Positions 3,345-58,044 of a DNA stretch of 58,044 bases are shown here, in pieces. Source of the DNA: an uncultured Bacteroidales bacterium. GTDB taxonomy: Bacteria; Bacteroidota; Bacteroidia; Bacteroidales; FEN-979. Location: assembly GCA_903875045.1 (NCBI GenBank), contig CAIQUS010000111.1:1-58044 (forward strand), in the 5' to 3' direction. Numbering within the stretch: position 1 is the first letter of the stretch; each line of letters starts with the position of its first letter. The translations under genes were made by a program, and so were the position numbers. The notes beneath the pieces were generated by a model that did no database searches, was not told where the DNA came from, and saw only the letters and a program-made list of their open reading frames with translations.

Positions 3345-3360
3345 TTTTCAATTTTCAATT
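3335..3360. repeat. Heptamer repeat (CAATTTT)3.7 spanning the dnaX/PfkB junction
   Basis: Three perfect CAATTTT units plus CAATT. The array covers the end of dnaX, the intergenic spacer and the TTG start codon of the PfkB gene, so a copy-number change would alter the distance to that start. Confidence 0.85.
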
Positions 3361-23500: not shown

Positions 23501-23697
23501 TTCGCCTCCTCTTTGACATGTTTTTCCGACGCGAATTCTTTCATCAGAAGATTATACATCTCCTGTGACAATTTCGCATTGGGATCCAATTCAACCGGAA
23601 ATCCCTTTTTTACAAGGAAATCCACTACGGTTTTGATCCCAATGTTAAATTCCCGTGCCGCTTTGCTTAACCTGGTAGTTACTATACCTTCACTCAT
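20581..23697 (-). CDS. infB: Translation initiation factor IF-2
   Basis: 1,038 residues. The N-terminal IF2_N-like helical module (about 6-55) precedes a long low-complexity Pro/Glu/Val-rich linker (about 120-340), then a basic stretch ([13 protein letters not shown]), a second IF2_N-like segment (about 470-520) and the GTPase core with [15 protein letters not shown] (G1), [13 protein letters not shown] (G2), [15 protein letters not shown] (G3) and NKMDK (G4). Domains II to IV follow. IF-2 brings initiator tRNA to the 30S subunit. The linker is long but of the kind usual in Bacteroidota. It is the last gene of the rimP-nusA-infB operon, 19 bp after nusA. Confidence 0.97.
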
Positions 23698-23716
23698 TCA
23701 GCAAAATTATGGTTTT

Positions 23717-24952: not shown

Positions 24953-24964
24953 TGTTTTGTGAGT

Positions 24965-25423
24965 CTACTGTTTAAAAGTGATTACTTCTTTTGCGGATTT
25001 TATATCGCTGAAATTCAACGACATAATTTTTATTTCCGTATCTTTTTTTGTCTTTTTCAGAGGCTGTATCTCCAATTCAATTCCGGTTTCATTGGCTGTT
25101 ATAACCACCCCTGTGAATTTTTCACCGGTTTTGGTCACCACATCAAGCGAATTACCAATGTTCTTTTTATACTGTCTGGCCAGTTTTAAGGGACGATCGG
25201 CCCCGGCAGATGAAACAGTGAGGTCGAAATCTTCGGTATCGCGGTCAAAACTTTCATTCAAAAAGTGGTTTAATTCACGGCAGGCGTCAATATTTACACC
25301 ATGATCGCCGTCAATAAAGACCGAAATGCGATTACCCGACCTGATAGCCACGTCAACCAAAAAGAATTCACCTCCTGAGAGATACCCTTCAATTAACTTT
25401 GTTACTTTCGCTTCAGTGATCAT
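24965..25423 (-). CDS. rimP: Ribosome maturation factor RimP
   Basis: 152 residues, full length. The N-terminal alpha/beta domain has RISVFIDGDHGVNIDACRE (about 32-50) and the motif DLTVSSAGADRPL (about 62-74), a recognisable variant of the usual VSSPGLDRPL. The C-terminal SH3-like domain follows. RimP assists 30S assembly. It is the first gene of rimP-nusA-infB, preceded by a near-perfect promoter and a leader hairpin. Confidence 0.94.
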   Translation of the reverse strand: MITEAKVTKLIEGYLSGGEFFLVDVAIRSGNRISVFIDGDHGVNIDACRELNHFLNESFDRDTEDFDLTVSSAGADRPLKLARQYKKNIGNSLDVVTKTGEKFTGVVITANETGIELEIQPLKKTKKDTEIKIMSLNFSDIKSAKEVITFKQ

Positions 25424-28500: not shown

Positions 28501-31500
28501 AGTCAGGATAACGTTGTATGTTCCGGCAGTAGCATACGTATGGATGACAGGTGAATAAGCAGGGAAGTTGATGACCGTATCATGTCCGTCGCCAAAATCC
28601 CAGGTCCATATTACAATATAACCTTGTGTATAGGTGGATTGATCAATAAAGGATACCTCAGATCCGCTACAATTCTCCGTGCTGTTTGAAAATGCGGCAA
28701 ATGGTGCCGGGCTGAGGTGTACTACTTTGGTCTTGAAATTTGTACATTGTCCGGAATTCATCACAGTGAGTTTCACCGTAAAGGGCCCTGCGGTGGTATA
28801 GAGATGCGATGGATTGGGTACCGTGGCATGTATTGAGCCATCCCCGAAATCCCAGTCCCAGGTAAGAATGGTTCCGGGATTGGTGGTGGACTGGTCGGTA
28901 AAATGGACCAAAGATCCCTGGCATACGGTGTCGAAAGTAAAATTGGCAACCGGCAGCACATTGATGATAACGGGTTTTACCAATGAATCCTTACAACCAC
29001 CTGCATTTGCGATAACCATTTTAACGTTGAAAGTACCTGACGCGGTAAATGCGTGGAGAGGATTCTGAAGCGTGGAGGTATTGCCAGTACCGCTCAAGGG
29101 GTCGTTGAAATTCCAGCGCCAGGATGTAATCGGGCCGCCGCCATTCAACAGGCTTGAATCAGTAAACTGTACATTTTGTCCCACGCAAAGCACATCTGAA
29201 TGATAAAATGCGGCATCTGGTCCGGAGACGCTCTGGATGAGGTGTTCCACCCAGGCAGTACAACTGTCGCTCGTTTTAACGGTAAGTCTTACGACATGCT
29301 GGGATGCAGTACCAACAAACGTATGGGTGACATTTGGAACAGATGGGTATAATATAGTTGTATCCGTTCCATCGCCAAAATTCCATACCCATTTCACGAT
29401 CTGGCCATGAGGGGTGGTCGATGTGTTGGTATAGGTTACCGGGGCACCATGGCACCGGGGGGCATTGGTTTGGAATCCCGCAACAGGAAGTGGAAGAACC
29501 AATACATTAATGGTGGTATCATGGCTGCAGTAATTTGAATTTTTAACCGTCAGTTTTACAGGGTAAGTACCCGCATATACATAAACATGCGAGGGGTTCT
29601 GGGAAGCAGAAACAGGGCTGCCATCGCCGAAATCCCATTGCCATTCAATGTTTGAGGCGGCATGCGGGGTGGAGGTGTCGGTGAATTGGGTTGCTGAGCC
29701 AAGGCAGGCTGTATTGTAGGTAAACATGGGGGTGGGGCCTTGCTGCACTGTAACGACCTTGATGATCGTATCCCGGCAGCTGCCGGAATTGATTACAATC
29801 AGGCGGACCTGATAAGTTCCGGTTGCACTGAATACATGAACCGGAGATTGAGTTGTGTCCGTATTGTTTTGGCCCGACAAAGGATCATCAAAATTCCAGT
29901 GCCAGGTTACAACAGAACCACCACCATTGAGCAGAGAGAGATCGGTAAATTGGACCTCTTCATTCTCACATGCATTGCTAAAAGAGAAGTTGGCAGCAGG
30001 AGCAGGGGTAATCTGTATATTTCTGGTGATCACGGCTGAACATCCTTTGTTGGTAGTAACTGTCAGCGTTACAGCATACATGTTTGGCAAGGAATATACA
30101 TGGGATATTTGCGAAAATCCCGACCAGAATATAGTAGTATCGGAACCATCCCCGAATTCCCAATGCCAGGATTGCAGGTAGTTGCTTCCAGTGGCATGAG
30201 ATTGATCGGTAAAGGTAACCGCGTTGCCGGTACATCTCGGGGCATCATGCGAAAACCATACGAAAGGCAGTTCACTCACAGAAACAGTGTGCGAAAAAGT
30301 ATTCACACAATCGTTGGTATCTGTCACGAAGAGGGTAACAAGGTAGTTGCCGGTCGCCGGATACAGATGCGAAGGTTCAAACGGAGAGGTAAATGTAGCT
30401 GAATTGCCATCTCCGAAATTCCATTGCCAGGTGGCAATCCGGCCAATATCAAGCCCGGTGAGATGGAACTGTGTCGGAAAACCAAGGCAGGCGGAGTCGC
30501 TGGTAAAATCGACCTGCGGGGTAGCGAAAATACGCACCAGTACACTGTCGCTATAGGTGACTTCGCACAAAGTCTGCGGATGCCGTGCTTCTACCTGATA
30601 TATCCCCGGGGTCGTCTTCCAGCCAAAAGAGATTGGCGCTCCGGTGCCAGGCAGTGGCGTGCCGCTTGGCATCCCTGAAAACAGCAACTGGTATAAGATA
30701 CCTGTTTGGGAACCATCAAGGCCGATTTCAATGCCTGAGCCACCTTCGCAGTATCCGCCACCATTGGTGGAAGTCATGTTATAAGTGTCCGGTTGCGGGT
30801 ACACTGTAATAGTGAAAAATGGTCCTGTCTGGGTTACGGTACAGTTCGCATCGGTCACCGACAAAATGGTGTAGGTGGTTGTTGCAATAGGGCTGACACT
30901 CAGATTGTAAGGACTAGCCGGAATGTTGTTGATGGTAAAATTGTTCAGACCATCCGTATAAGTGACAGACCATGGACCAAGGCCTGACAGGGTCATGGTC
31001 ACAAAGACTGAGGTGCCTTCGCAGATGGTGTCTGTTCCGCTCAAAGTTATGGCCGGCAACGGCTTGAAGGTAATGGTTATGGTATCCGAATCAATCACTG
31101 GAGCACATTGCTGCAAGCCGTTCACCGTCATGATCAGGGAGACAAATCCTTGCTGGAGATCGATCAATCCCGGGGTATAATGTGGTTGCAGGAGGGTTGA
31201 ATTGTCAAATACCCCATCCCCCAGGGAACTCCAGAGCACCGACATGTAATGGGCAGCCGAACTGTGCATCGGGATAGCCACATTCGGGCAGGAAAGTGTA
31301 TCATTGCCTGCGTTGGCAACGGGTAAAGGATAAAGGGAAAGCAGTAAGCTGTCGGAAACTGTTTCGGTGAGGCAACTGAGTACCCCGTGAACGGAAAGCC
31401 TGAGCATCGCCGATCCGGTAAGAATATCCAACGGTCCAGGTGTATATACAGGGTTGAGGGTGTGGATGTTGTTGAAAGTTCCATCACCCGAAGTGATCCA

Positions 31501-34500
31501 TAAAAGATCGGAATTGCGCTGGACTGTTGCAAAAACATGATAAGACTGGTTGGCGCAAATGGTTGTATCCGGCCCGACATTCACCATAGGAAGTTTGTTC
31601 AGGATCAGCTTCATGGTATCCCGGTCGGTTTCAAGTGAACAATGAGCTAACCCATTTGCTGTGAGGACAAGACGGACGCTTCCTGTAGTCCGGTCGTTGG
31701 TGCCGGCCGTATAGGTTGCATCAAGAATGGCCGGATTGTCAAACGAACCATCTCCCAATGTTGTCCATAGAACCGATGATTGGTGCTGCGCACTGCCGGA
31801 AAGCCGGTATGACCAATTTTCACAAATGGTATCGTCCGGTCCTGCAGAAGCCACAGGCAATGGCTGAAAGTACAGGGTCAGAAAATCGGAGATGGTATCG
31901 CCCATACAGGAAAGTGTTCCATGAACCGTCAGCTTTAACTGGACATGCCCTGCCAGTTGATCGAGCGGCCCGGGGGAATAAACAGGGTTTAAAACAATGG
32001 CATTGTCGAAGGTCCCATCGCCCATGGTGGTCCAGTGCATGGTGGAAACGTGTTGAACCGAAGCATTCAGGGAAGCTGTTTGGGTAACGCAGATCGTGTC
32101 GTTTGCCCCTGCATCGACGATGGGGAAGGGGTTGATGGTAACAATGATCGTATCGGTCACTGAAACAGACATGCATTCGGGGGAACCATAAACCATGAGT
32201 ACCAGGTTGACAGAGCCTGAAGTTATATCAGCAGGCCCCGGTGTATAAACAGGGTTCAGGATGGCGGGATCAGAGAGGATCCCATCACCCATGGTTGACC
32301 ATATTGAAGATGTATAACTTGTAGCCTGACCGGCCAGTTGCAGCGTATATGTTGCACAAATGGCCGTATCATTGCCTGCAAATGCAACAGGTCCCGGTGT
32401 TAATATCACATGATCTGGCAGGGTGTCGGAACACAAAGTAGCAACGGTTGTGGCGATCACAAAATAGGAACCTGCAGGTTGTAACCCAAAGGTAACCGGG
32501 CCGCCAGTTCCAGGCACTGTCGCTATGGAAAATCCATTTCTGTAAAGCTCGTAGGAAACACCATTCTGAGACCCGGCAAGGCTGATTTCAGCCGGGGCGC
32601 AATTGGCACCCTGCGGCAGAACGGCAAAAGTGAGTGGTGAGGGCTGTATGTTGGTACTGCCTGTCATCATGGTGTCGCAGGAAGTGATGGTATTCACAGC
32701 CTTCACGGTATAAATTCCCACCTGGTACTGAAGTCCGAAATGAATGATAAATCCGGTTCCAGGGAGGGTTGAAACAGGTATGTTATTTCGAAGCAGTTGG
32801 TATGAAACCCCGATATGGGAGCCATTCAGGTAAATATCGGTCCCGACACATTGATCGCCGGCAGGCTGCACGAGGAAACTCTCCGGCAATGGGCTCAGTA
32901 CAGTTGCACCATTCATCACTGAATTGCAGGAATTAGTACTGTATACTGCTTGTACCGTGTATTTGCCGGGATAGAACTGATTCCCGAACCAGATGGCACT
33001 GCCGGTACCCGCAACCGGGCCTGCAGCAATGAACAAGCTGTCGCGGATCAAGGTGTAATTCACCCCGGTTTCAGAACCATCCAGTCCGATGTTCATATTG
33101 GCACAGCCAACACCGTTGGGTATGACATTGTATTTTGTCGGAAGAGCGAAAATTCGCACACTATCGGCCATGGGATACTGGCAATCGGTAACGGTATCGG
33201 TCGCTGTGATTTTATACACCCCGCTGGTTTGGTAAGTGCCAAATATCAGTGGCCCGCCGGTTCCCATGAGGGTGTCGAGATAAATCGTTCCGTTCAGAAT
33301 CAGTATATACCTTTTTCCTGATTGCGATCCATTGAGGCGAACGATTGCGGGGGCACAGGTATCCCTGGAAGGGAGAATGTTATAAACCACCGCCGGAGGC
33401 TCAATGGTGACGCTTCCGGGCATCCAGCCATAGCAATCGGTTGTTGGGTTGTAGGCCACAATCCGGTAAACACCCGGCAGATGCTGCGATCCGAAAATAA
33501 GGGCTGATCCGGTTCCAGCGTGAGGTAAGCCGACATTGGTCAGACTGTCGCGTCTGAGCTGGTACATGAGGCCTGTTTCTGAATTGGAGAGTCCGATGAT
33601 GGTTGGTGAACAGTTGATCCCGGCAGGGGTAATCGTATACTCAATGGGGCCGGGCATAATCGTGGTGGTTCCATCCATCAGCGTATCACAGGTGGTTATG
33701 GTGTTCACGGCTTTCACGGTATAAACACCTGCGAGGAATTGTTTTCCGAAACTCAGCATGGTGCCATTGCCATCTTTGGTAACCTGAATGATACTGTTAC
33801 GGAGCAACTGATAAGAAATGCCCGTTTGGGATCCATTGAGATAGATTTCGGTTCCTGCACACTGACTGCCCTGGGGTTCGATCTGATAGGTAACCGGCAG
33901 TGGCAATAGGATGGCGCTGCCATTCATCACCGAATGACATGATGTGGAGGCAAAAGTTGCTTCTATCGTATAAGTCCCCGGAAGGGATTGGGCTCCAAAA
34001 GAAAATGCTCCTCCTGTACAAGGTATAGGACCTGCCACGATGATCGACCCGTTGCGGATCAATGTATACAACACGCCGCTCTGACAGTTGTCGAGACCGA
34101 TGGGTGAATTTGCACAGGCAATGCCGTTGGGGGTGATGTTGTATTTAATAGGAGTGGCAAATATCCGGAGGCTGTCAGCCATCCAGTATTCACAATGGGT
34201 GAGGGTATCAATGGCCTTGATCTTATAAGTTCCGGCGGTTTGGTAGGAGCCGAACAGGAGCGGCTGGCCGGTACCATATAAACTGTCGAGGTATTGGGTT
34301 TCATTTAAAATTAACCGGTAGGATATACCGGTTTGTGAACCATTCAGCCTGATGAGGGCAATGGCACATGTATCGCCCGAAGGCAGCATGTTGTAAACGG
34401 TGGGTGCTGGCTGGATGGTGGCATCACCATTCATCCATGAATAGCAGTGTGTCAAAGGATTATAAGCAATCACGCGGTATTTTCCGGGAAGATATTGCGG

Positions 34501-37500
34501 ACCGAAATTGAGGGAAACACCCGTTCCGGGGATGGGAGGTCCGACATTGATCAGGCTGTCGCGGCGCAACTGATAATTTATACCGATTTGTGAGCCAGTT
34601 ACCTGGACGATTTGGCCGGGGCAGAGGATCCCGGGAGGAATTACCGTAAAAATTTCAGGGGCTGGATGCAGGGTTACTGTGCCGATTGCATCCGTTTTGC
34701 ATTTGGTGATGGGGTTGATTGCGACCACACGGTACGTACCAGTGTCGTATTGATGGCCAAATGTAAGTAAGCCGAACTGTCCAGTGCCAGGACGCATGGA
34801 AATGGTGTCATTTCCCCGGATCAGATAATAATTGATACCGGCTTCAGAACCATTGATCAGCACTTCGGTTCCATAGCAGGTATCGCCCTGCGGAACGAGC
34901 AGATAAGCAGCAGGCACAGGGTGAACAACGATGACCGCGCTGTCGTGCATCATTTTACTGAGGCCGGAGGAAAGGTTGATTCCCTGCACGGTATATAAAC
35001 CTGCCGTGGTGAATTTTCCGAATATTAATGTGTCCTCAGCCGCAGTGCCCAACATTTCTTTGAAAGTGAGTCCATTTCTTTTTAGAATATATTTTACATT
35101 GAACTCCGAACCATCAATTCCAACGACTTTACCGGAATCGCCTTCACAGATTACTCCGCCGCCGAAAACATTAAAAATATTCGGATAATAGATCACGCAG
35201 ACCCTGATGCTGTCGGGGAAATATTTTTCACAACCTGTAATAATGTTTGTGGCCCTCACATGATAATATCCGGCAAGTGTTTTATATCCAAAATTCAATG
35301 GACCAGGCCCTAGTAGTGAGGGCGCAATGGGAACTGTATCATGAAACAACGTGTAACTGATGTTGGTATCAGAATTCGCCAGACCAATTTTAATGCCCAA
35401 TCCACCAAAAGTATAACAGCTGTCTCTTGAGGTAGTCATGGGATACACCGTTGGCAGCGGATTAACCGTTACCGTAACAGAATTGTTCATAAACCGGGAG
35501 CAATCGGTCACCGTATTCATTGCATTCACGGTATAAACCCCTGCGATGAATTGATTTGGAAACGACATGGTTGTGCCGTCGCCAACAAGAAATGCCACCG
35601 AATCAACACCCCGGTAAAGAGTATAAGCGATGCCGGATTCTGTATTTTCAACAGTGATGGGAACACCCGGACCTTCGGCACAATAAGCACCGCCGCCGGA
35701 GATGATTTTGGAAACAGGCAGCGGATTGACCGTAACGGTGTAAATACTTACCTGGCCCAGACAAGTCGCAAATTCAGGGGTGACGGAATAGTTCACATCG
35801 ACCGGGACAAGCGATGAATTGGTGAGTATTTCTGCGGGTATGGTATTTCCGCACGAAGCCGCACATGGCGTGGCACCGGTACCAGAGGGGGCAACGGTCC
35901 AGGTGAAGGTGGTGTTGGCGACGGAGGAGAATAAGCCAACAGCCGTCGTAGAATGTTCCGAGCATATTACCTGGTTTGGTAATGAGAAAATCGTATTTGG
36001 TGTAGGATTTACCGTGAAAGTGAAAGTTTTTGGAGGTCCAATACAACTTGCAGGTCCATTGGCAAAATGAGGAGTCACTACGATCGTGGCAATTACTGGT
36101 GCATTCACTGCATTTATGGCAATAAATGATGGGATGTCGCCAGTGCCATTTGAAGAAAGGCCTATACTAATTTGGTCATTTGTCCAGGTGTAGGTTGTAA
36201 TTCCATTTGAATTTAGGGTGCCGAAAATAACTGGTGTGGTGCTGAAAGAATTACACAGCACCTGGTCTGATGGTTGATTGACCTGACCAGTCGGATTTAC
36301 AGTAATGGTAAAAGTTGTTGTTGGTCCATCACAGGTGACAGATCCATTGGTGAATTGAGGTGTTACTGTTATAGTTGCCACAATGGGAGTGAAACCTGTA
36401 TTTATGGCGGTGAAAGCTGCAATATCACCGGTTCCACCTGCTGCCAGACCAATCGATGTCTCGTTATTGGTCCATAAATAGGTTGAGGTACCCCCAAAGT
36501 TTGTTGACACGAAATTTATTGGAGCAGTGCTTTGACCATTGCACACAACCTGGTTTGCCGGCTGATTCATCTGTCCGGATGGATTCACAGCAATGGTAAA
36601 TGTTTTAGCCGGTCCGTCGCAAGTGACGGTTCCATTGTTGAAATGAGGTGTCACCGTAATCGTTGCTACAATAGGTGTTGATCCGGTGTTTACAGTCGTA
36701 AAAATCGGAATATCACCAGTGCCGGAGGCTGATAAGCCGATCCCGGACTGATTATTTATCCAGGTGAAAACTGTCGTTCCGCCAGTAGTTGTTGTAGAAA
36801 AAGTGATTGCTGATGTATTAAAGTTATTGCAGACCACCTGACTGGGTGGTTGATTCACCTGTGCGGTAGGATTCACTTCAATGGTAAAGGTTTTTGAGCC
36901 ACCTTCACAGGTTACCGATCCGTTGGAAAAATGAGGTGTTACGATGATTGTCGCCGTGACTGGTGAGGTACCGGTGTTGATGGCAGTAAAAGAGGAGATA
37001 TTTCCTGATCCAATAGCAGGTAACCCAATGCTTGCCTGGTCATTGGTCCATGAATAGGTGGTGGTTCCTCCTGAATTACTGGAAACAAAAATGACGGATG
37101 CAGTGTTTCCTCCATTACAGAGATACTGGTTCGCAGGTTGATCCATCTGACCGCCCGGGTTTACAGTTATTGAAAAACTCTTAGCGGGGCCTTCACAGGT
37201 TACCGTGCCATTTGTAAAAAAGGGTGTTACGGTGATGGTGGCAACAACGGGACTGGAACCGGTGTTGATTGCAGCAAACGACGGGATGTCTCCACTACCG
37301 CTCCCGGCCAATCCAATACTGGTCTGATCATTGGTCCATGTATAAGCAGTTGTACCCCCGGTAAGAACTGTTGTAAATACGACAGGATTTGTATTTGCGC
37401 TGTTGCAAAGAACCTGATTCAATGGTTGATTGACAAATCCTGATGGATTTACTGTTATGTGGAATGTTTTGACAGGTCCATCACATGTTACATTGCCATA

Positions 37501-40500
37501 GGTGTAGTGGGGAGTCACCGAAATAGTTGCAATAACCGGGGATGTACCTGTATTCAGAGTGGTAAATGATGCTATATGGCCTGTGCCATTGGCAGCCAAA
37601 CCAATACTCGTCTGGTCATTTGTCCATGAATAGGTGGTGGTCCCTAAAGTATTGATGGTTGTAAAGGTAACGGATGAATTTGAATTGTTACAGATTACCT
37701 GGTCATCAGGAGTATTTACCTGTCCTGTTGGATTAACAGTGATGGTGAAAGTTTGAGCCGTCCCGTCGCATGTCACCAAACCATTCGTAAAATGTGGTGT
37801 CACCGTAATGGAGGCTACCACCGGTGCAGTACCTGAATTGTTGGCAGTAAAGGATGCAATATTGCCGGTACCACTGGCAGCTAAACCAATACTTGTTTGA
37901 TCATTTGTCCATGTGTAAGTTGTAATACCAGTAGTGTTGCTGGTCGTAAAGGTCACCAAAGCGGTTGAACCGTTGTTACAAACAACCTGGTCAGTCGGAT
38001 CATTCACCTGTCCTGTTGGATTGATGGTAACTACAACATCAATAGGCACCCCGTTGCAATTGTCTATCGCCGGTGTGATATGGTAGGTAACAGTTGCCGG
38101 TGAAGTGGTAGTATTGGTAAGTGTTTGAGCAATTGTATTGCCGGCCCCGTCAGCAAAGCCAGAGGCAGTGCCTGATGTAAGTGATGCAGTCCATGAATAG
38201 GTAACAATTGCTCCTGTAATATTTGTGGTTAATGCAATACTTGTCGTTGCGCCATTGCAGATTGTCTGAGATGGCGGAGAAGCAATGACATCAGGGGTAG
38301 GCTGTACCGTGACATCAAAATTAAATGGAGTGCCCGGGCAAATGGTCACACCCGGACCAGTAGGTGTAATGACGTATCTCACTATACCCGGGGAAGTGCC
38401 CGAATTTATTATAGTATGGTTGATCATGTTGCCGCAACCTGAGTTGCAGGCACTGAAACCGTTTATATTGCCTGCTGGTAAAGTAATAACTGAAGCTGTC
38501 CAGGTAAAAGTCGTTCCTGTCGTAGCTGATGTGATGGTGTAGTTCACTCCTGTATTGTTGCAAATGGTTTTTGCAGGAGAACTGGTTACTGTTGCTGTAG
38601 GATTTACTGTAATCGTAAAGCTTTGGGTGCTTCCCTGGCAGCTGGTCCCCCCACTGGTGAAAACCGGGGTGACGGTAATGGTGGCAACGACAGGCATCGT
38701 ACCGGAGTTCGTGGCTGTAAAACCGGAGATATTACCTGTACCACTGTCTGCAAGGCCAATGCTTGTTGTGTTATTCGTCCAGGTGTAGGTAGTGCTCCCG
38801 CCTGTGTTGTTGGTGGTAAAGGTTACCGGTGATGTATTCGAACTATTGCACAATTCCTGATCGGCAGGTTTATTTACCTGCCCGGTCGGGTTCACAGTAA
38901 TGGTGAATATTTGTGATGGCCCGCTGCAGGGAAAAGTACCAATGGTGAGGTGAGGGGTTACTGTGATTGTGGCTGTAACAGGTGTATTACCTGAATTGAC
39001 AGCGCCGAAAGCGGCAATATTGCCAGTGCCATTCGATGCTAATCCAATACTTGTCTGGTCATTTGTCCATGTGTAGGTCGTTGTGCCGGAAGTATTGTTG
39101 GTTGTAAAGGTGACCGAAGTGTTTGAACCGTTGCAGACAACCTGGTCTGACGGATCATTCACCTGTCCGGATGGGTTAACTGTAATGGTGAATGTTTTGG
39201 TTGATCCAGTGCATGTAATACCTCCGTTTGTAAACACAGGTGTAACAACAATGGTGGCAACTACTGGTAATGAACCGCTATTGATTGTTATGAATGGCAA
39301 TATATTTCCTGAACCACTTGCTGCCAGTCCGATACCGGGGGTGTTGTTTGTCCATGAATAGGTTGTGATTCCGCCTGTAAGGGTGGTCCCAAAAGTAATT
39401 TGTGCAGTTGAAGTACCATTGCAAACTTCCTGACTGGCCGGTTGATTTACCTGCCCGTCAGGATTGATGGTAACAACAACATCAATGGGAATTCCCGTAC
39501 AGTTGTTAATGGCGGGTGTGATATGGTAGGTAACAGTTGCCGGTGAAGTGGTCGTATTGGTAAGTGTTTGAGCAATTGTGTTGCCAGCCCCGTCAGCAAA
39601 GCCCGTGGCAGTGCCTGATGTGAGTGATGCAGTCCATGAATAGGTAACTGTGGCTCCGGTAGTGTTTGTTGTTAAAGCAATGCTTGTTGTTGAGCCATTG
39701 CAGATTGTCTGAGATGGCGGAGAAGCAATGACATCAGGGGTAGGCTGTACCGTGACATCAAAATTAAATGGAGTACCCGGGCAAATGGTCACACCTGGGC
39801 CGGTTGGTGTGATGATATATCTCACCACTCCTGGGGAAGTGCCCGAATTTGCTAAAGTATGGTTGATCATGTTGCCGCAACCTGAGTTGCAGGCACTGAA
39901 ACCATTTACATTGCCTGTTGGTAAAGTAATAACTGAAGCTGTCCATGTAAAAGTCGTTCCGGTCGTAGCTGAGGTGATGGTGTAATTCACTCCTGTATTG
40001 TTGCAGATTGTTTTTGCCGGATCACTGGTTACTGTTGCTGTTGGATTTACAGTGATCGTAAAGCTTTGGGTGCTTCCCTGGCAGCTTGTCCCTCCATTGG
40101 TAAAAACTGGGGTGACAGTAATGGTGGCAACTACAGGCATCGTGCCGGAGTTCGTGGCTGTAAAAGCAGAAATATTACCTGTGCCACTGGCTGCTAGGCC
40201 AATGGTTGTTGTGTTATTTATCCAGGTATAAGTAGTGATTCCTCCAATGTTAGTTGTGGTAAAGTCGACCTGTGAAGTAGTCGAATTATTGCACAATTCC
40301 TGATCGGCAGGTTTATTTACCTGCCCGGTCGGGTTCACAGTTATCGTGAATATTTGTGATGGCCCGCTGCATGGAAAATTACCAATGGTGAGGTGAGGTG
40401 TCACAGTGATGGTTGCTGTTACAGGAGCATTGCCTGAATTAACCGCACCGAAGGCGGCAATATTACCAGTGCCACTGGCTGCCAATCCAATACTCATCTG

Positions 40501-43500
40501 GTCATTTGTCCAGGTGTAGGTCGTTGTACCGGAAGGATTGTTGGTTGTAAAGGTGACCGATGTGGTTGAACCGTTGCAAACGACCTGGTCGGACGGATCA
40601 TTTACCTGTCCGGATGGGTTAACGGTAATGGTGAATGTTTTGGTTGATCCTGTGCATGAAATACCTCCATTTGTAAATGCAGGTGTAACAACAATGGTTG
40701 CAACTACTGGTATTGAACCGCTATTGCTGGTAATAAATGGCAAAATATTTCCTGTACCATTCGCTGCCAGCCCGATACCGGGGGTGTTGTTTGTCCACGA
40801 ATAGGTTGTAGTTCCACCTGTAACGGGTGTCCCGAAAGTTATGAGTGTCGTTGAATTACCGTTGCAGACTTCCTGACTGGCCGGTTGATTTACCTGCCCG
40901 TCAGGATTGATGGTAACAACAACATCAATGGGAATTCCCATACAGTTGTTGATGGCGGGTGTGATATGGTAAGTAACAGTTGCCGGCGAAGTGGTAGTAT
41001 TGGTAAGGGTTTGAGCAATTGCATTGCCGGCACCGTCAGCAAAGCCCGTGGCAGTGCCTGATGTGAGTGAGGCAGTCCATGAATAGGTAACAGTTGTTCC
41101 GGAAGTGTTTGTTGTTAAAGCAATGCTTGTCGTTGAGCCATTGCAGATTGTCTGAGATGGCGGAGAAGCAATGGCATCAGGGATGGGCTGTACCGTAACA
41201 TCAAAATTAAACGGAGTGCCAGGGCAAATGGTTGTACCCGGACCGGTTGGTGTGATGATATATCTCACCACACCCGGTGAGGTGCCCGAATTTGCTAAAG
41301 TATGGTTGATCAGGACGCCGCAGCCTGAGGAACAAGGACTAAACCCGGTTATATGGCCACCAGTAGGTGAAGTTAACTCATAAACTGTCCATGTAAAAGT
41401 CGTTCCTGTCGTAGCTGACGTGATGGTGTAATTTACTGTTGTACTGTTGCAGATCGTTTTTGACGGAGGACTTGTTACTGTTGCCGTAGGATTTACAGTA
41501 ATTGAAAAGGTTTCCGGGGTTCCCGGGCAGCCTGGAACTCCATTCATGAAAGTCGGGGTTACTGTAATCAGGGCCACTACCGGTTCAGTACCAGAATTCA
41601 TGGCCACAAATGACGGGATATTTCCGGTGCCGTTGGCACCAAGCCCAATGCTCGTGGTGTTGTTGGTCCAGGTATAGGTAGTGCTTCCTCCATTGTTGTT
41701 TGTGGTAAAGTTTACCAGTGAAGTATTGGAATAATTGCACACGACCTGATCCGAAGGTTTGTTCACCTGGCCTGTTGGGTTTACTGTGATGGTAAATGTC
41801 TGTGAAGGTCCATCACAGGTGATGCCGCCATTCGTGAAATATGGAGTTACTGCGATATTTGCAAAAACAGGTGCCGTGCCCGTATTGGAAGCTGCAAAGG
41901 ATGTTATGTTGCCAGTGCCATTGGCTGCCAGGCCAATACTCGTCTGGTCATTTGTCCAGGTATATGTTGTGGTTCCCACAGTATTGTTTGTGGTAAATGT
42001 AACCGATACCGGTGAGGTGTTACAGACTATCTGATCGGCAGGATCATTCACTTGTGCTGTTGGATTAACTGTAATGGTGAAAGTTTGTGCAGGTCCTTCA
42101 CAAGTTGCCGATCCATTGGTAAAATGAGGTGTTACCATTATGGAGGCAACAACTGGCGCAGTACCTGTATTTGCGGCAATAAAGGATGCAATATGACCGG
42201 TACCGCTGGCAGCTAAACCAATGCCAGGCTGATCATTTGTCCATGAATAGGTTGTGATCCCTGAAGTGTTGTTTGTGGTAAAAGTTACCATAGCGGTTGA
42301 ACCGTTGTTACAAACAACCTGGTTATTAGGATCATTCACCTGTCCTGTAGGATTTATGGTGACAACTACGTCAATAGGTATTCCGGCACATGGTCCAATA
42401 GCCGGTGTGATATGGTAGGTAACAGCTGCCGGTGAATTTGTAGTATTGATAAGTGTTTGAGAAATTGCATTGCCGGTCCCGTCTGCAAAACCCGTGGCAG
42501 TCCCTGATGTGAGCGATGCAGTCCATGAATAGGTAACAGTTGCTCCGGTAGTGGTCGTTGTTAAAGCAATACTTGTCATTGTTCCATTGCAGACTGTCTG
42601 GAGTGCCGGATTTGCAATGACAACAGGGGTAGGCTGTACGGTTACATCAAAATAAAAGGGAATTCCCGGGCAAATAGTTATCCCGGGTCCTGTTGGCGTG
42701 ATGATATACCTGACCACTCCCGGGGAAGTACCTGTATTATTTAAGGTATGGTTGATCAGGTTCCCGCAACCGGAAGAGCAATCACTGAAATTGGTAATTG
42801 TGCCATTTGCAGGGGAGGTATACACCGAAGCAGTCCAGGTGAACGTTGTTCCGGTCGTAGCTGACGTGATGGTGTAGTTCACTCCGGTATTATTACAAAT
42901 CGTTTTTGCCGGAGAACTGTTTACTGTTGCTGTTGGATTTACAGTAATCGTAAAGATTTGGGTACTTCCCGGGCAACTTGTCCCACCATTGGCGAAAATT
43001 GGCGTTACCGTAATGGTGGCAACGACAGGTGAAGAACCAGAGTTAGTGGCCAAAAAAGCGGAAATGTTACCTGTTCCGCTGGCTGCAAGTCCGATGCTTG
43101 TTGTGTTATTTATCCAGGTATAGGTGGTGGTTCCTCCCGTGTTATTCGTGCTGAATGCGACTGGTAAAGTACTCGAACCATTACACAATTCCTGATCGGC
43201 CGGTTTATTAACTTGTCCGGTCGGGTTAACGGTGATGGTGAAAGTTTGTGCAGGGCCGTCGCAGGAAATAGAACCAATGGTTGAATGAGGAGTGACGGTG
43301 ATGGTGGCTGTAACCGGTGTAGTGCCTGAATTAACCGCACCAAATGTTGGAATATTGCCGGTACCGCTGGCTGCCAATCCAATGCTTGTCAGATCATTGG
43401 CCCACGAATAGGTTGTAGTACCTGAAGTACTGTTGGTTGAAAAGGTGACCGATGTGTTTGAACCGTTGCAAACTACCTGGTCGGCGGGGTCATTTACCTG

Positions 43501-46500
43501 TCCTGACGGGTTGACCGTAATGGTGAATGTTTTAGATGGCCCTGTACAGGAACCACCTTCATTGATAAAGGTAGGTATAACGACAATGGAAGCAACAATG
43601 GGGGATAACCCGCTATTGATGGCAATAAATGGAGGTATGTCTCCTGAACCACTTGCTGAGAGTCCGATACCGGGTGTGTTGTTTGTCCAGGAATATGTGG
43701 TGATTCCAACGGTATTGGATGTTCCAAAGGTTATTTGTGAAGTGGATGTTCCGTTACAAACCAACTGATTGGCGGGTTGATTCACCTGTCCCGCCGGATT
43801 GATGGTGACAACTACGTCAATGGGTGTTCCTGTACAACTTCCGATAGCCGGTGTGATATGATAGGTAACAGTTGCCGGTGAAGTTGTCGTATTGGTGAGG
43901 GTTTGAGCAATTGTATTGCCGGTCCCGTCAGCAAAACCTGTGGCAGTGCCTGATGTGAGTGATGCTGTCCATGAATATGTGACAGTTGCTCCGGTAATGG
44001 TCGTTGTTAAAGCAATACTTGTCGGTGTTCCATGGCATACAGTCTGCAATGCCGGAGTAGCAATCACCTGTGGGGTTGGTTGTACCGTGACGTAAAAATC
44101 AAATGGAATTCCCGGACAAATGGTTATCCCGGGACCGGTTGGCGTGATGATATACCTCACCACTCCCGGGGAGGTGCCGGTATTATTCAAAGTAGGATTG
44201 ATGATGTTGCCACAACCTGAGGTGCAATCACTGAAATCGGTTATTGTGCCATTTGCAGGAGAAGTAAATACAGAGGCTGTCCAGGTAAAAGTTGTTCCGG
44301 TCGTAGCTGATGTGATGGTGTAGTTCACTCCGGTATTATTGCAAATTGTTTTTGCCGGAGAACTGTTGACTGTTGCTGTTGGATTGACCGTGATCGTAAA
44401 GGATTGGGTACTTCCCGGGCAACTTTTCCCTGCGTTTGTAAAGGTCGGCGTTACCGTAATAGTGGCAACAACAGGGACAGAACCGGAATTAGTGGCTAAA
44501 AAAGCAGAAATGTTACCTGTACCACTGGCTGCAAGACCGATGCTTGTTGTGTTATTTATCCAGGTATAGGTGGTGGACCCTCCGGAATTGTTCGTGGTGA
44601 ATGAAACCGGTAAAGTACTCGAATTATTACACAATTCCTGATCGGCAGGTTTGTTGACCTGTCCGGTGGGGTTAACAGTAATGGTGAAAGTTTGTGCAGG
44701 CCCGTCGCAGGAAATAGAGCCAATGGTTGAATGAGGCGTGACGGTGATGTTGGCTGTAACAGGTGTATTGCCTGAATTAACCGCACCAAATGTTGGAATA
44801 TTGCCGTTACCGCTGGCTGCCAATCCAATACTTGTCTGATCATTGGTCCATGAATAGGTTGTAGTACCCAAAGTACTGTTGGTTGAAAAAGTGACCGATG
44901 TGTTTGAACCGTTGCAAACTACCTGGTCGGCGGGGTCATTTACCTGACCCGAAGGGTTGACCGTAATGGTGAATGATTTGGAAGGCCCTGTGCAGGAACC
45001 ACCTTCATTGATAAAAGTAGGAATGACCACAATTGTAGCAACCACGGGTGATAACCCATTATTGACGGCAAAAAATGGCGGAATATCTCCTGAACCACTT
45101 GCTGCCAGTCCGATACCGGGTGTGTTGTTCGACCAGGTATAGGTGGTGATTCCAACTGTGTTGGATGTTCCAAAAGTAATTTGTGAAGTGGCTGTACTAT
45201 TGCAAACCAATTGATTGGCCGGTTGGTTCACCTGCCCTGCCGGATTGACGGTGACAACTACGTCAATGGGTGTTCCTGTACAACTTCCGATAGCCGGTGT
45301 GATATGATAGGTAACAGTTGCCGGTAAAGTTGTCGTATTGGTAAGCGTTTGTGCAATGGTATTGGCACTTCCGGGAGAAAATCCACTGGCACTTCCTGAT
45401 GTTAAGGCTGCCGTCCATGAATAGGTAAGAGTTGCACCTGTGATGGTTGTTGATAAAGCAATATTTGTCTGTGTTCCATGGCATACAGTCTGGGATGCCG
45501 GAGTTGCAATGACAACAGGTGTAGGCTGGACCGTGACGTCAAAATTAAATGGAATTCCCGGGCAACTGGTTATCCCGGGGCCGGTTGGCGTGATGATATA
45601 CCTGACCACTCCCGGTGAGGTCCCGGTATTATTCAAAGTATGGTTGATTATGTTCCCGCATCCTGAGGAGCAATCGTTGAAATCGGTAATTGTACCATTT
45701 GCGGGTGAAGTAAATACCGAGGCTGTCCAGGTAAACGTTGTTCCTGAGGTAGCCGATGTGATGGTATAATTCACTCCTGTATTGTTACAAATTGTCTTAA
45801 CCGGAGAACTGTTTACTGTTGCTGTTGGATTTACGGTGATCGTAAAGGTTTGGGTACTTCCCGGGCAACTTTTCCCAGCATTTGAAAAGGTCGGTGTTAC
45901 CGTAATGGTGGCAACAACAGGCACAGAACCTGAGTTAGTGGCCAAAAATGCTGAGATATCTCCTGTTCCACTGGCCGCTAAACCAATGCTTGTAGTGTTA
46001 TTTACCCAGGTATAGGTTGTGGTTCCTGCGGTATTGTTCGTGGAAAAAATTACAGGTGAGGTAATCGAATTATTACACAATTCCTGATCCGTTGGTTTAT
46101 TCACCTGCCCTGACGGGTTCACCGTGTAGGTGAATGTCTGTGAAGTCCCGGTGCATGTCGCAGAACCATTTGTGTAATGTGGGGTTACGGTAATTGTGGC
46201 AACAAGGGGTGCAGTGCCTGCATTCAGGGCCGTAAAAATCCATATATTGCCTGTTCCGCTTGCTGCGAGTCCTATACTTGTCTGGTCATTTGTCCAGGTA
46301 TAGGTGGTTGCTCCGCCAAGGTTATTTGTTGTAAACGCCACGGAAGAAGTTGCCCCATTTTTGCAAACGACCTGATCTGCTGGATCATTCACCTGTCCGG
46401 AGGGGTTGACCGTGATGCTGAATGTTTTAAATGGCCCTGTGCAGGAACCGCCTTCATTGGTAAAAGTAGGTATTACGACAATTGTTGCAACAACGGGTGA

Positions 46501-49500
46501 TAATCCGCTATTGGTGGCAATAAAGGGTAATATATCACCTGAACCACTTGCTGCGAGTCCGATTCCGGGTGTGTTGTTCGTCCAGGTATATGTAGTGATA
46601 CCAACTGTATTGGATGTTCCAAAATTTATTGGTAATGTATACATCCCATTGCAAACCAACTGATTGGATGGTTGATTTACCTGCCCGGTCGGATTTACGG
46701 TTACCACTGCATCAATGGGTATTCCTGTACAACCTCCGATGGCTGGTGTGATATGATAGGTAACAGTTGCCGGTGAAGTTGTGGAATTGGTAAGTGTTTG
46801 TGCTATGGCATTACCGCTTCCGGGAGAAAATCCACTGGCGCTCCCTGATGTTAAGGTTGCAGTCCATGAATAGGTAACAGTTGCTCCTGTAATGGTTGTT
46901 GATAATCCAATATTTGTCGGTGTTCCATTGCATATTGTCTGGGATGCCGGAGTGGCAATGACAACAGGGGTAGGCTGGACTGTGACGTCAAAATTAAATG
47001 GAATTCCCGGACAAATCGTTATCCCGGGGCCGGTTGGTGTAATAACATACCTGACCACACCTGGTGAAGTACCCGTGTTTATCAATGGTTCATTGATCAG
47101 GTTACCGCAACCAGAAGTACAATCACTGAAATCGGTTATTGTGCCATTTGCGGGTGAAATAAACACCGAGGCTGTCCAGGTAAACGTTGTTCCTGACGTA
47201 GCTGAGGTGATGGTATAGTTCGCTCCTGTGTTATTACAAATCGTCTTTGCCGGAGAACTGTTAACCGTTGCCGTTGGATTAACAGTGATCGTAAAGGTTT
47301 GGGGACTTCCCGGGCAGCTTTGACCACCATTGACAAAATGTGGCGTTACGGTTATAGTGGCAACAACTGGGAGTGAGCCGGAGTTGATGGCCAAAAATGC
47401 TGATATATCTCCTGTTCCACTGGCGGCAAGACCAATGCCCGGGGTGTTGTTTATCCAGGTATAGGTTGTGGTTCCTGCAGTATTGTTCGTTGAAAATATA
47501 ACCGGTGTGGTTATCGAATTATTACACAATTCCTGATCAGGTGGTTTATTCACCTGACCTGACGGGTTCACCGTGAAGGTGAATGTTTGTGAAGCCCCTG
47601 TGCAAATAGCAGAACCATTTGTATAATGAGGTGTTACCGTAATGGTGGCAACAACTGGTGCAGAACCTGAATTAAGAGCAGTAAAAAAACCGATATTGCC
47701 TGTACCGCTGGCTGCCAGCCCGATACTTGTCACGTCATTTGTCCAGATGTAGGTTGTTGTTCCGCCAAGGTTGTTCGTTGTAAAAACAACCGGGGTTGTA
47801 ACTCCATTCTTGCAAACGACCTGATCTGCAGGGTCATTCACTTGTCCCGAAGGGTTGACTGTGATGCTGAATGTTTTGGATGACCCGATACACGATATGC
47901 CTCCATTGGTAAAGGTAGGAAATACGGAAATTGTCGCAACCACTTGTGCTGTGCTGTTGTTGGTGGCAATAAAAGCCAAAATATCGCCTGAACCACTTGC
48001 TGCCAATCCGATACCAGGTGTGTTATTGGTCCAGGTATAGGTTGTGATTCCAACTGTATTGGATGTTCCAAAAGTTATTTGTGTGGTGGTTGCTCCGTTG
48101 CAGACTACCTGACTTGATGGTTGATTCACCTGGGCTGCCGGATTTATGGTTACCACTACATCAACGGGGGTACCTGTGCAACTCCCGATTTTTGGTGTTA
48201 TATGATAAGTAACAGTTGCAGGAGAAGTTGAAGTGTTGGTTAGCGTTTGAACAATGGTTGAGCCGTTACCGGACGAAAAACCCCCGGCACTTCCTGATGT
48301 CAATGTTGCATTCCAGGTGTAGGTAACAGTTGCACCGCTTATGGTTGTTGAAAGTGCAATATTTGTTGGTGTTCCATTGCATATAGTTTGTGAGGCAGGT
48401 GTTGCAATGACATTTGGCGTGGGCATCACCGTGACATCTAAATTAAATGGGGTGCCCTGACAATTGGTAGGAGCCGGGCCATTGGGAATGATTACATAAG
48501 TGACCACCCCAGGAGAGGTTCCTGCATTATCCAGGTTATGGGTGATGAGACTTCCGCATCCTGATGAACAATTGCTAAACCCGGTGATGTTTCCACTTGC
48601 TGATGCGGTCCATGTAAAAGTCGTTCCAGATGTGGTTGAAGTGATTATGTAATTGACAGATGCATTGTCACAGATGGTTTTTGCTGCAATACTGCTAACA
48701 ACAGGTGCAGGGTTTACAGTAATGGTAAAGGTTTGCGAAGGACCCGGACAACTTTTCCCTCCGGAAGTGAATGTAGGAATAACTGTGATGGTGGCAATTA
48801 CCGGAATGGTTCCGCTGTTTGTAGCTGTAAAAGGAGTGATATCTCCGGTGCCGTTTGCTGCCAAACCAATGGAGGTTGTGTTATTGCTCCAGGAATAGGT
48901 GGTGGTTCCAAGGGTGTTGAGGGTCGAAAAGGAAATCAGTGAAGTAATCGAATTGTGGCAAAGTACCTGATCAGCCGGATCATTCACTTGCCCAGCCGGA
49001 TTCACCGTGATGGTAAACGTTTGAGGAGAACCATCACAGGTGATAGAACCTAGGGTTACATGAGGTGTAACGGTGATCAAAGCTATAACTGGTACAGTGC
49101 CGGGATTGAGAGCGGTAAAGGATGGTATATTCCCTGTTCCGCTGGCAGCCAGCCCAATTCCCGGTTGATTATTTGTCCATGTATAAATTGTAACGCCTGA
49201 TGTGTTAATGGTCGTAAAGGTAACCGGCGAAGTATTCGAATTGTGACAAACAACCTGATCTGCCGGCTTATTCACCTGCCCTGACGGGTTTACCGTGATG
49301 GTAAAGGTTTGCTGAGAACCATCACAGGTCAGCAAACCATACGTAAAATGTGGTATTACCACGATGGTGGCCACAACAGGTGAGGTGCCTGTGTTGATGG
49401 CGGTAAAGGTTGCTATATGGCCGGTGCCAGCGGATGCCAGTCCAATGCTTGTTTGGTTATTTGTCCAGGTATAGGTTGTAATTCCGATGGTATTGTTGGT

Positions 49501-52500
49501 TGTAAAAGTGACTGATGTATTTGAACCATTGCATACCACCTGATCAGCGGGATCATTCACCTGCCCGGACGGATTTACGGTAACTACAACATCAATGGCT
49601 GTTCCTGAACAACTGCCGATTTTCGGCGTGATGTGATAAGTAACTGTGGCCGGTGAAGTTGTCGTATTGGTAAGCGTTTGCACAATTGTTGAGCCGCTGC
49701 CGCCCGAAAAACCCCCGGCAGTGCCCGATGTGAGTGCGGCAGTCCATGAATAGGTTACAGTTGCGCCGGTAATGGCCGAAGAGAGCAAAATACTTGTTGC
49801 TGTTCCATTACACACTGTCTGTGCTGCCGGTGATGCAGCAACAGTAGGGGTAGGCTGTACAGTGACATCAAAATAAAAGGGTGTGCCCGGACAATTGGTC
49901 GGGGTGGGGCCGGTTGGGGTGATAATATATCTGACCACTCCCGGGGAGGTGCCGGTATTATCCAGTATGTCATTAATAAAGCTGCCGCAGGATGATAGAC
50001 AGTTATTGAAATTATTGATGGTTCCACCAGTTGGCAGAGTCAGAACCGAGGCTGTCCATGAAAAAGTTGTTCCTGATGTAGAGGAAGTTATCGTGTAACC
50101 AACGCCGGTGTTATCGCATATTGTTTTTGCAGGGGCACTGGTTATTATTGGCGAAGGGTTCACCGTAATCGTAAAGGATTGCGAAGTTCCCGGACAACTA
50201 ATGCCCCCATTGGTAAAAGTTGGAATCACTGTAATCGTAGCAACCACAGGTGCAGTTCCACTGTTCAAGGCAGTAAAAGGCGGAATGTTTCCGGAACCAC
50301 TTGCAGCTAATCCGATGCTTGTCAGATTATTAGTCCATGAGTAGGTTGTCGTGCCTGAAGTATTGCTGGTTGTAAAAGTTACCAGAGACGTACTGGAATA
50401 ATTGCATAATACCTGATCAGAAGGTTTGTTCACCTGTCCTGCCGGGTTCACTGTGATCGTGAATGTCTGAGAAGGGCCATCACAGGTTGAAGTTCCATTC
50501 GTAAAATGAGGAGTCACAACAATGTTGGCGACAACCGGGCCTGAACCAGGATTGATGGCCGTAAAGGGTGGGATGTTTCCGGTTCCGGTTGCTCCAAGTC
50601 CAATGCTGACCTGGTCGTTTGTCCATGTATACGTTGTTGTCCCTCCGGTATTTACTGTGCCAAAAGTAACGATGGAAGTATTTGCGTTATGGCAAACGTT
50701 CTGGTTGGCTGGCAGATTTACCTGACCTGTTGGATTAACGGTAATCGTAAACGATTTAGGGTTGCCGTCGCAGATGATGGAACCATAAGAAAAATGAGGC
50801 ATTACAGTGATTGTGGCTGATATAGGTGCCGTCCCGGTGTTAATCGCCTGAAAAGAGGCTATATTCCCTGAACCGGTGGCCGCAAGACCAATGCTTGTCT
50901 GATTATTTGACCATGTATAAGTTGTTGTTCCGCCCGTGTTAACAGTGCTGAATGATACGGATACAGTGTTTTCTCCGTTGCAAACCAACTGGTTAGCCGG
51001 CTGGTTTATTTGTCCGCCGGGATTAACTAAAATGTGGAATGTTTTTGTCGGTCCATTGCAATTAACAGTGCTGTTGAGAAAGTGTGGCGTTACAATGATG
51101 GTGGCAATGAGGACCGAAGTTCCGGTATTTACGGCGGTAAAAGAACCAATATTTCCGGAACCTGATGCAGCCAGCCCGATACCGGTCTGGTCATTTGACC
51201 ATGTATAGGTAGTGGTTCCTCCTGAATTATTTGTAGTGAAAACAACCGGTGCTGTACCCGACCCGTTGCACACAACCTGATCGGCCGGTTGATTGACTTG
51301 TCCTGTGGGATTTACGGTAATGGTGAAAGTCTGGGTTGATCCATAGCAAGTTACAGAACCATTTAAAAAACGTGGTGTCACAACCAGGGTGGCCGTAACC
51401 GGTGAGGTTCCGGTATTAACTGCAGCAAATGAGGCAATGTTGCCGGTGCCGGCAGCGGCCAGTCCGATCGAAGTGGTATTATTTGTCCAGGTGTATGATG
51501 TCCCCGTTCCAATAAAATTGATTTGAGTCGTCAATGAGCCATTGCACAGTAGCTGACTGGCCGGTTGTACAACAATTGGCGTCGGGTTGACTGTAATGGT
51601 AAACTGCTTCGGAGGCCCGGAACAGGTTACCCCGCCGCTGGTATACTGTGGTGTAACGGTGATGGTAGCTGTGACTGGTGACGCATTTGGATTTAATCCG
51701 GTAAACGGCGGGATATCACCTGTGCCCATTGCTCCCAGCCCTATGGTAACGTTATCATTGGTCCAGGTGTATGAAGTCCCTGTACCTGTGAAAATTATCT
51801 GGCTGGTTTGAAATCCGTTGCAAACGACCTGGTTGGCAGGTTGTGTTACCTCAGGCGTGGGGTTAACCGTGATGGTGTATGTTTTTGAACTGATGCCGCA
51901 TCCGTTGCCGGTAAATAATGTAATGGAATAAGTACCCGCTGCGGTAAATTTTACCAGCAATACCTCGGAACCATTTATCCAATAATCAATATCGTTGGGG
52001 TATCCACCATTATTGCCTGTCAATGAGGGAGCAACGATATACCAACCCGTTGAAGGGGAAATTGACCAATATTTCGATGGGGGAGATCCACATCCGGATA
52101 TACCTATTACACCCCCGGGGTCGGAGGTATTCGTTGCCGTAACTTGCTGTTCAATGCATGTTGTGGATGTGTTTGTTGTAAAATTGGCAACAGGGGCCGA
52201 ACTGATCACAATCGGATAAATTGCATTTCCTGCTGTAGGGGTACACGGATTTGTAATTTGCATGGAAGCCACAAAAGAATTTTGGTATACAGTTCCGTTT
52301 GGTGCGGTGAAACTGTATCCGCAGGAAGATAAAGTGTATGTATGAGAGATGGTATCCGGAATATCCGGATGATAATAAACAGCACTTTGACCGTCTCCAA
52401 AATAAACTTCATATTTTGTTCCTGGCACATTGCTTTGAACTCCTACAACAGGGAACTTTAGTGTAAATGGCCTGCATCCTGACATACTACCAGGGTTTCC

Positions 52501-53994: not shown

Positions 53995-54114
53995 CAGACA
54001 CTGTCAGGTTTCGAAAACTCAGACCTGTCAGAGTCTTTTAGACCTGACAGTGTCTGAAAAGGTTTCGAAAACTCAGACCTGTCAGAGTCTTTTAGACCTG
54101 ACAGTGTCTGAAAA
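53995..54114. repeat. 54-bp exact tandem duplication with nested palindromes
   Basis: Units 54007-54060 and 54061-54114 are identical (GGTTTCGAAAACTCAGACCT...GTGTCTGAAAA). CAGACACTGTCAGGT (53995-54009) is the reverse complement of ACCTGACAGTGTCTG in each unit (54042-54056 and 54096-54110), so alternative hairpins can form. The CAGACCTGTCAG/ACCTGACAG theme resembles interspersed palindromes seen in other Bacteroidota. Confidence 0.85.
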
Positions 54115-57903: not shown

Positions 57904-58044
57904 AATCATTTCATCCCTTCGGGATTTTGTTGTGAAGCAATATGGTTCAATACTACAATCATTTCATCCCTTCGGGATTTTGTTGTGAAGCAATATGGTT
58001 CAATACTACAATCATTTCATCCCTTCGGGATTTTGTTGTGAAGC
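57904..58044. repeat. 53-bp tandem direct repeat, continues past the window
   Basis: Units start at 57904, 57957 and 58010. The first two are identical over all 53 bp and the third is identical for its visible 35 bp. Each contains the small palindrome ATCCCTTCGGGAT. The number of copies cannot be known because the array runs off the right edge. 53 is not a multiple of three, so it is unlikely to be coding. Confidence 0.9.

Follow-up and report, generated by a model that had tools for sequence, protein, structure and literature searches.

Positions 1 to 58,044 of contig CAIQUS010000111.1 of an uncultured Bacteroidales bacterium (GTDB lineage FEN-979; GenBank assembly GCA_903875045.1), referred to here as the window, carry a giant gene in which an ordered block of five domains, A-A-A-B-C, is repeated nine times in tandem. 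The gene, all features of which lie on the minus strand, is an uninterrupted open reading frame (ORF) at 25522..53379 that encodes 9,285 amino acids (aa; about 961 kDa, isoelectric point 4.7). The nine units occupy 38017..51018 (aa 788–5121), as established by domain parsing, pairwise identities, a domain tree and a lag test. The array probably belongs to the immunoglobulin-like (Ig-like; PKD_5) stalk of a giant surface protein that is secreted by the type IX secretion system (T9SS), is anchored in the type B manner and has grown by block duplication.

Order and positional relatedness of the domains

When domains are delimited at the conserved final strand (A-type, 92–96 aa; B, 96–101 aa; C, 94 aa), this part of the protein reads A6-B-C-(A-A-A-B-C)8-A7 followed by one divergent domain, and parsing with hidden Markov models (HMMs) returns the identical string. 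The ninefold AAABC order therefore bears out the nine blocks of A-alpha, A-beta, A-gamma, B and C (A1, A2, A3, B and C below) that an earlier reading of the letters alone, the original prediction, had placed at 38017–51018. In the domain table, units measure 477–483 aa (1431–1449 nt), so the predicted spacing of 1434–1449 bp is right at its upper bound and slightly high at its lower; that the spacings are multiples of three is correct, and constitutes no separate evidence because the frame is open. B has a fixed place in all nine units, and the number of cysteines per A/A/A/B/C domain is 2/2/2/4/2 without exception in the 45 domains, which probably corresponds to one disulfide in each A and each C domain and two in each B domain. 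The array is bordered by monomeric A domains: N1–N3 on the N-terminal side (aa 508–787, 51019..51858; from domain parsing, identities and the tree) and T1–T7 on the C-terminal side (aa 5122–5792, 36004..38016; from parsing and identities). T7 is followed by the divergent T8 (aa 5793–5886, 35722..36003), which by parsing and cysteine count has four cysteines, as in B.

Mean protein identity at the same position of the nine units is 67% for A1, 72% for A2, 75% for A3, 77% for B and 78% for C, compared with 61–65% between differing A positions, about 31% between A and B, about 35% between A and C, and 43% between B and C. At the DNA level, A domains inside a unit are 62.6% identical (n=27). The figure is 74.9% (n=24) for the same position one unit on, and reaches 83.6% between adjacent core units (n=12); in 19 of the 24 comparisons, the counterpart in the next unit is closer than both A domains of the same unit. 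Domains at lag 5 have a mean identity 24 points above the overall mean, a value matched by none of 4,000 shuffles of domain order (p ~0.0002).

In a tree built from 55 domains, T8 excluded, B and C are each recovered as a single group (support 100/99 and 82/83, respectively), and across the A domains the position label changes 5 times and the unit label 22 times, which upholds the claim that the five-domain block, and not the single domain, is what was duplicated. Adjacent domains as each other's closest relatives, the outcome named in advance as incompatible with that claim, are not seen in this tree. Taken singly, the labels A1, A2 and A3 change four, four and two times, against about 8.5 for shuffled labels. 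The A1 domains of core units 3–6, 8 and 9 form a clade with support 100/100, and residue 6 is Q in A1, D in A2 and K in A3 across all six core units. Clustering by position, and the greater likeness of same-position than of within-unit domains, thus hold as predicted for the lag-5 excess, for B and C in all nine units, and cleanly for A1 and A2 in six units; they fail for A1 and A2 of units 1, 2 and 7, which fall outside their expected classes. A single clade of all nine A1 domains is rejected (p-AU, the p value of the approximately unbiased test, 8e-10), and single clades of A2 (p-AU 0.21) and A3 (p-AU 0.45) are not rejected. The identity figures cannot decide the unit frame: frames starting at A1.1, A2.1, A3.1 or B.1 give mean unit identities of 72.9–73.3%, the predicted frame giving 72.9% and the alternative of nine A3-B-C-A1-A2 units (aa 980–5312, 37444..50442) giving 73.3%.

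DNA identity between units ranges from 65.8 to 88.8%, and dN/dS (the ratio of nonsynonymous to synonymous substitution rates) is 0.10–0.21 in all 36 unit pairs. Because its units are 11–34% divergent, the array is, judged by its sequence, old and constrained by purifying selection, and not homogenised as a whole. The C domains may have been exchanged more recently than the rest, with a synonymous divergence (dS) of 0.17 between C.7 and C.8.

Unit 7, the end units and the growth of the array

Unit 7 is chimeric. Its A1 and A2 domains (aa 3678–3868, 41776..42348) have as their nearest counterparts the flank domains T1 and T2 (aa 5122–5312, 37444..38016) and are taken to be trapped flank. A1.7 pairs with T1 in the tree (99/95) at 82% DNA identity, and dS between the two is 0.67, compared with at least 1.1 (one value saturated) between T1 and six other A domains; such dS dating is rough, with values well above 1 near saturation. 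In a scan along unit 7, T1–T2 is the best match over A1.7 and much of A2.7, and then weakens. This pattern is what would be left by unequal crossing-over of the array end with an upstream A2. The dS of A1.7–T1 lies near the 0.71–0.82 of units 5/6 versus 8/9 and exceeds that of units 5–6 (0.45) and 8–9 (0.37).

The most diverged units are 1 and 2. A1.1 pairs with T4 (99/94) and A2.1 with T3 (88/56), and A1.2 and A2.2 have no resolved placement in the 55-domain tree. Blocks at lag 15 are 71–83% identical, and units 5–6 and 8–9 are closer within the pairs. The satellite-type signature that had been proposed is therefore seen in the homogeneous core, the monomeric flanks and the degenerate end units, and not in the 11–34% divergence of the units.

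Relatives of the array indicate what it may have grown from. In a set of 41 genomes (its own, 18 of the genus, 6 more of the family and 16 of the order), unit 6 is matched in 25, and the best matches outside its own genome, in family genomes, reach at most 69% identity; one scan of named genomes yields 24 loci, mostly Bacteroidales or Bacteroidota metagenome assemblies. The B model finds 28 of 393 genomes of the order (its own included) at E 1e-8, with best scores elsewhere of 140 and 97 bits. The fetched loci contain 132 ORFs of at least 600 aa in which one or more domains of type A, B or C are present at 18 bits, the window and some redundant pieces included, and the 21 ORFs besides that of the window that either show AAABC or BCA or have a B domain above 35 bits were examined for domain order. 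Repeated AAABC occurs in none of these 21, so that among the fetched loci the cassette is multiplied in the window alone. It is present once in three loci: L134 (B-C-A-A-A-B), L022 (C-B-C-A-A-A-B-c) and L175 (C-A-A-A-B), L061 being a fragment from the same site as L175; L033 reads A6-b-c when the cut-off is loosened, its b and c being weak. It would therefore seem that the cassette predates its multiplication, and because B-C flanks A-A-A on both sides, the array could have started by one unequal exchange between B-C copies.

The history that we regard as probable would begin with an older array of A domains, in which multi-domain blocks were duplicated in tandem via unequal homologous recombination. 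A pre-existing B-C-A-A-A-B cassette would have expanded to nine copies. Two C-terminal flank domains would later have been captured in an unequal exchange and become the first two domains of unit 7, and pairs 5/6 and 8/9 would be young products of additional exchanges; selection would then keep each copy in frame and folded. The resulting approximately 90 domains (our own estimate) would form a long beaded stalk with a distinct B-C pair at regular intervals. Each such domain would add about 4 nm of length.

Several observations weigh against so simple a history. A2.7 and T2 are just 73% identical, and the second half of A2.7 is about equally near T2, A2.1 (70% each) and A2.2. In the core, A2 splits into two subtypes (A2.3/4 versus A2.5/6/8/9) and the dS of C is often below that of the A positions; gene conversion or domain replacement must therefore also have played a part, and more than one order of events would fit. 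The closeness within pairs 5–6 and 8–9 would fit later exchange, a reading made without a fitted model. The tree also comes with a warning that B and C, being on long branches, may be wrongly attached to A, which leaves comparisons among A domains unaffected.

That domains were gained one at a time and subsequently homogenised in concert by gene conversion between positions, with few block duplications, is very unlikely: the dS of C falls below that of the A positions in most of the unit pairs listed, including the 0.17 of C.7–C.8, and the A2.3/4 type differs from A2.5/6, as conversion could explain, but the AAABC order is itself ninefold, and conversion alone cannot have created it because A, B and C are mutually about 30–43% identical, too distant for interconversion. 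A false tandem expansion in the draft assembly can hardly be entertained, even for a genome in 253 contigs, because the longest exact repeat in the array is 81 nt and no 100-mer recurs within it; a single open frame of 9,285 codons runs through the whole.

Block sizes in the same protein and in relatives

The five-domain period is not the only one in the protein. Thirteen D domains, each about 84 aa long, form an array (aa 5899–7001, 32377..35685) that has an identity of 45.6% at lag 4 against a mean of 36.3% (p 0.0004), and contains a duplicated four-domain block (aa 6248–6920, 32620..34638) with 51–67% protein identity by position. Farther toward the C terminus, a PKD array (aa 7645–9084, 26128..30447) of 14 domains by our own model, compared with 17 stretches of PF18911 that Pfam reports in aa 7501–9285, has an identity of 42.5% at lag 3 against a mean of 35.2% (p 0.0002), the three-domain period lying at about aa 7795–8482 (27934..29997). 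One gene thus holds three block periods, of 5, 4 and 3 domains.

In the relatives, 31 runs of A domains were tested at lags up to 12, some of them sharing an ORF (three in L158, two each in L161, L162 and L166), with p values given per lag and uncorrected for multiple lags. Values of p<0.01 occur at lag 1 in L158 (three runs), at lag 2 in L013, L035, L041, L053, L119, L158 and L168, at lag 3 in L158, at lag 4 in L166, at lag 5 in L013, L052 and L156, at lag 7 in L168, at lag 9 in L163 and L166, and at lag 10 in L156; the remaining runs have no lag at this level. Of the 15 runs with a significant lag (window included, and three of them from L158), four are led by lag 5, four by lag 2, three by lag 1 and two by lag 9; lags 4 and 7 lead one run each. 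In L042, two of four strong mutual-neighbour pairs are five apart. For the first 16 relative arrays combined, the Stouffer z at lag 5 is 2.3 and that at lag 2 is 6.0.

It was then set beforehand that lags five and two should recur in new arrays, of which there were six, two of them from the same genome as the window. Lag 5 is the significant leader in none of the six. L176 is led by lag 8 (mean identity 86%), with p 0.0047 at lag 5; L180, L181 and L185 are led by lag 1; L177 and L183 are without a significant lag, five being the commonest neighbour lag in L183 (4/7, non-significant). Lag 2 is significant in L176, L180 and L181. Five as a general block size is thus unsupported, the later arrays having brought other sizes, and the block sizes across relatives are 1, 2, 4, 5, 7, 8 and 9.

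Individual arrays illustrate this range. L156 (G241:C7:148000-167900) is a 4,902-aa ORF with 41 A domains arranged as a five-domain higher-order repeat with monomeric flanks, its successive core blocks being 74–92% identical in DNA. L157 was dropped as an additional five-domain array: it is 100% identical to L156 over 10,349 nt, represents the same gene on an overlapping contig end, and is absent from the 31-run test. L158 (G118:C29:64000-83900) is a 6,275-aa ORF in which a block of about 1,566 aa, made up of 14 A domains and some 256 aa besides, is present in three copies, and its opposite strand carries three long open frames of 841–1,261 aa. Nine- and four-domain periods are seen in L166 (G789:C10), and an eight-domain lag in L176 (G139:C19). 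A tree across six relative arrays and the window is built on a short alignment and has 65 of its 126 inner branches open. In it, domains that lie five apart in L013, L042 and L052 pair up within the array they come from; these five-domain blocks therefore seem to have arisen separately. Homology of the A1/A2/A3 classes of the window with the five-domain blocks of relatives is unsupported by this tree.

These periods bear on what fixes the size of a block. Structural selection, in which five domains make one superhelix turn or one step of a partner lattice (an idea put forward for titin super-repeats and the thick filament), and only five-domain additions are kept, is in our judgement improbable. 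It would suit the constant place of B in nine of nine units, the five-domain periods of arrays made of A domains only (L013, L052, L156 and, by its pairs, L042) and the apparently separate origins of three of these. However, four- and three-domain periods stand in the same protein, five leads in four of the 15 significant runs, and the new arrays, L176 with its lag of eight among them, do not have it as leader. The fixed five-domain superhelical period put forward in the original prediction is accordingly unsupported as a rule, and for the window array itself it is possible. With several block sizes, three of them in one protein, the evidence therefore leans to recombination chance over structural need. 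An extended form of the block-duplication reading holds that the giant type IX stalks of Bacteroidota grow like satellite DNA, each of several arrays in a gene by its own block size (here 5, 4 and 3), and that the ninefold B-C pair with three A domains between serves as a ruler with a binding site every ~20 nm; this is a doubtful proposition. Through the relatives it can be asked whether recombination chance or structural need sets the size of a block.

Probable secretion and surface anchoring, and known systems

The giant protein begins with a putative signal peptide (aa 1–26, 53302..53379; read by eye) and an Ig_7 domain (aa 106–183, 52831..53064; Pfam PF19081, 58.7 bits), and ends with a C-terminal domain (CTD; aa 9157–9285, 25525..25911) that is likely, from CTD homology in the genome, to be a type B T9SS sorting domain. 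Unit 6 matches PKD_5 (PF19406) with 101 bits against a gathering threshold of 25, over four stretches and best over C; in the same search the T1–T7 flank piece has no PKD_5 row. AlphaFold2 models of unit 6 (mean predicted local distance difference test score, pLDDT, 94.4; predicted template modelling score, pTM, 0.69) and of a single A domain (pLDDT 96.9, pTM 0.85) are nearly all beta; in the former, the B and C alignment columns comprise nine rows.

A Foldseek search with the unit model places cadherins and other Ig-like proteins first. A 345-residue fragment of GhpA (PDB 9g8b) is at rank 31 (template modelling, TM, scores 0.36/0.47; 20% identity), with two bacterial S-layer proteins also above it by E-value, and has the highest target-normalised TM among the best 50 matches. 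With the single A-domain model nothing appears at E <0.001 and GhpA is not among the best 50; unit 6 has no match among PDB sequences up to E 10, and a profile search gives no GhpA row, the comparison covering GhpA sequence short of its full length. Kinship with GhpA is thus unsupported by sequence or single-domain structure searches, and the likeness is a general one.

The genome encodes a T9SS translocon (SprA_N, 551 bits), together with 8 PorP/SprF and 18 CHU_C matches (10 above cut-off). Three CTDs of the same genome, on contigs C31, C99 and C176, share 80, 77 and 62% identity with that of the giant protein, and each belongs to an ORF with a PorP/SprF match within ~90 nt downstream; two further matches have 36–38% identity. 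Because the three relatives adjoin PorP/SprF, and by analogy with the SprB-SprF pair (PMC9143113), export by type IX secretion with type B anchoring at the outer membrane is likely. Less favourable to this assignment, the CTD itself scores below the cut-offs (TIGR04131, 24 versus 35 bits; CHU_C, 18.8 and 23.5 versus 27 bits), and no PorP/SprF gene adjoins the giant gene, all eight lying on other contigs.

Downstream and co-directional with the giant gene are rimP, nusA and infB (20581–25423, minus strand), which begin 98 bp past its stop; further neighbours encode CAP and tetratricopeptide repeat (TPR) proteins. Perfect tandem repeats occur upstream of the giant gene (54 bp x2 at 54006–54114) and at the window end (53 bp x2.7 at 57904–58044), and 7-bp units are repeated in short tandem runs at gene borders or close to them (1419–1478, 3334–3360 and 10901–10952).

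Among known systems, alpha-satellite higher-order repeats (HORs) have copies that diverge by <2% at equal positions (PMC4585704). The array shares with them position-matched units, monomeric borders and unequal crossover as the proposed engine, and differs from them in being protein-coding and consisting of nine copies, with units that are 11–34% divergent and dN/dS of 0.10–0.21 (PMC4585704); its borders are monomeric as theirs are, and its divergence is far beyond <2%. By contrast, it has the features of super-repeats of the titin and nebulin kind, namely a fixed domain order and same-position domains that are closer than those within a unit. The array is therefore to be placed as a bacterial example of already described block-duplicated super-repeats, and its satellite-like anatomy is real.

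In surveyed proteins, block duplication is known by 7 in nebulin, by 4 in Fn3 and by 5 in cadherin, often in mid-array; single-domain duplication is less common than block duplication, and domain repeats are much more frequent in eukaryotes (PMC1553488). The window array shares multi-domain duplication with these proteins and differs in being bacterial and in having three periods in one protein (PMC1553488). In the accessible portions of the open-licence literature, no T9SS protein was found to be described as carrying a multi-domain super-repeat. Among the closest patterns is that of the titin A-band, in which Ig and fibronectin type III (FnIII) domains form beads-on-a-string super-repeats of 7 domains x6 and 11 domains x11 (PMC10665226). 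In both titin and the window protein ordered multi-domain units are repeated, with more than one unit size per protein, and titin also has a similar centre-to-end trend; titin differs in being a eukaryotic muscle protein of other domain families with a period tied to the thick filament (PMC10665226). The array thus offers a bacterial parallel to titin with legible growth steps: a cassette that relatives have in single copy, its ninefold multiplication between monomeric flanks, the flank trapped in unit 7 and the young unit pairs.

For function, the comparison turns to Bacteroidota surface proteins. SprB of Flavobacterium johnsoniae is a repetitive type B T9SS surface protein of 6,497 aa and 669 kDa with sprF adjoining, and is likened to the window protein by description, both being huge and repetitive, the window gene being without a PorP/SprF neighbour (PMC9143113, PMC9870892). 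GhpA of Aureispira forms a giant T9SS-linked surface filament, the grappling hook (PMC13319060, PMC11205867). Adhesion is a guess at the function of the window protein from SprB and GhpA, which would be its functional analogues, with titin and nebulin as precedents for its pattern.

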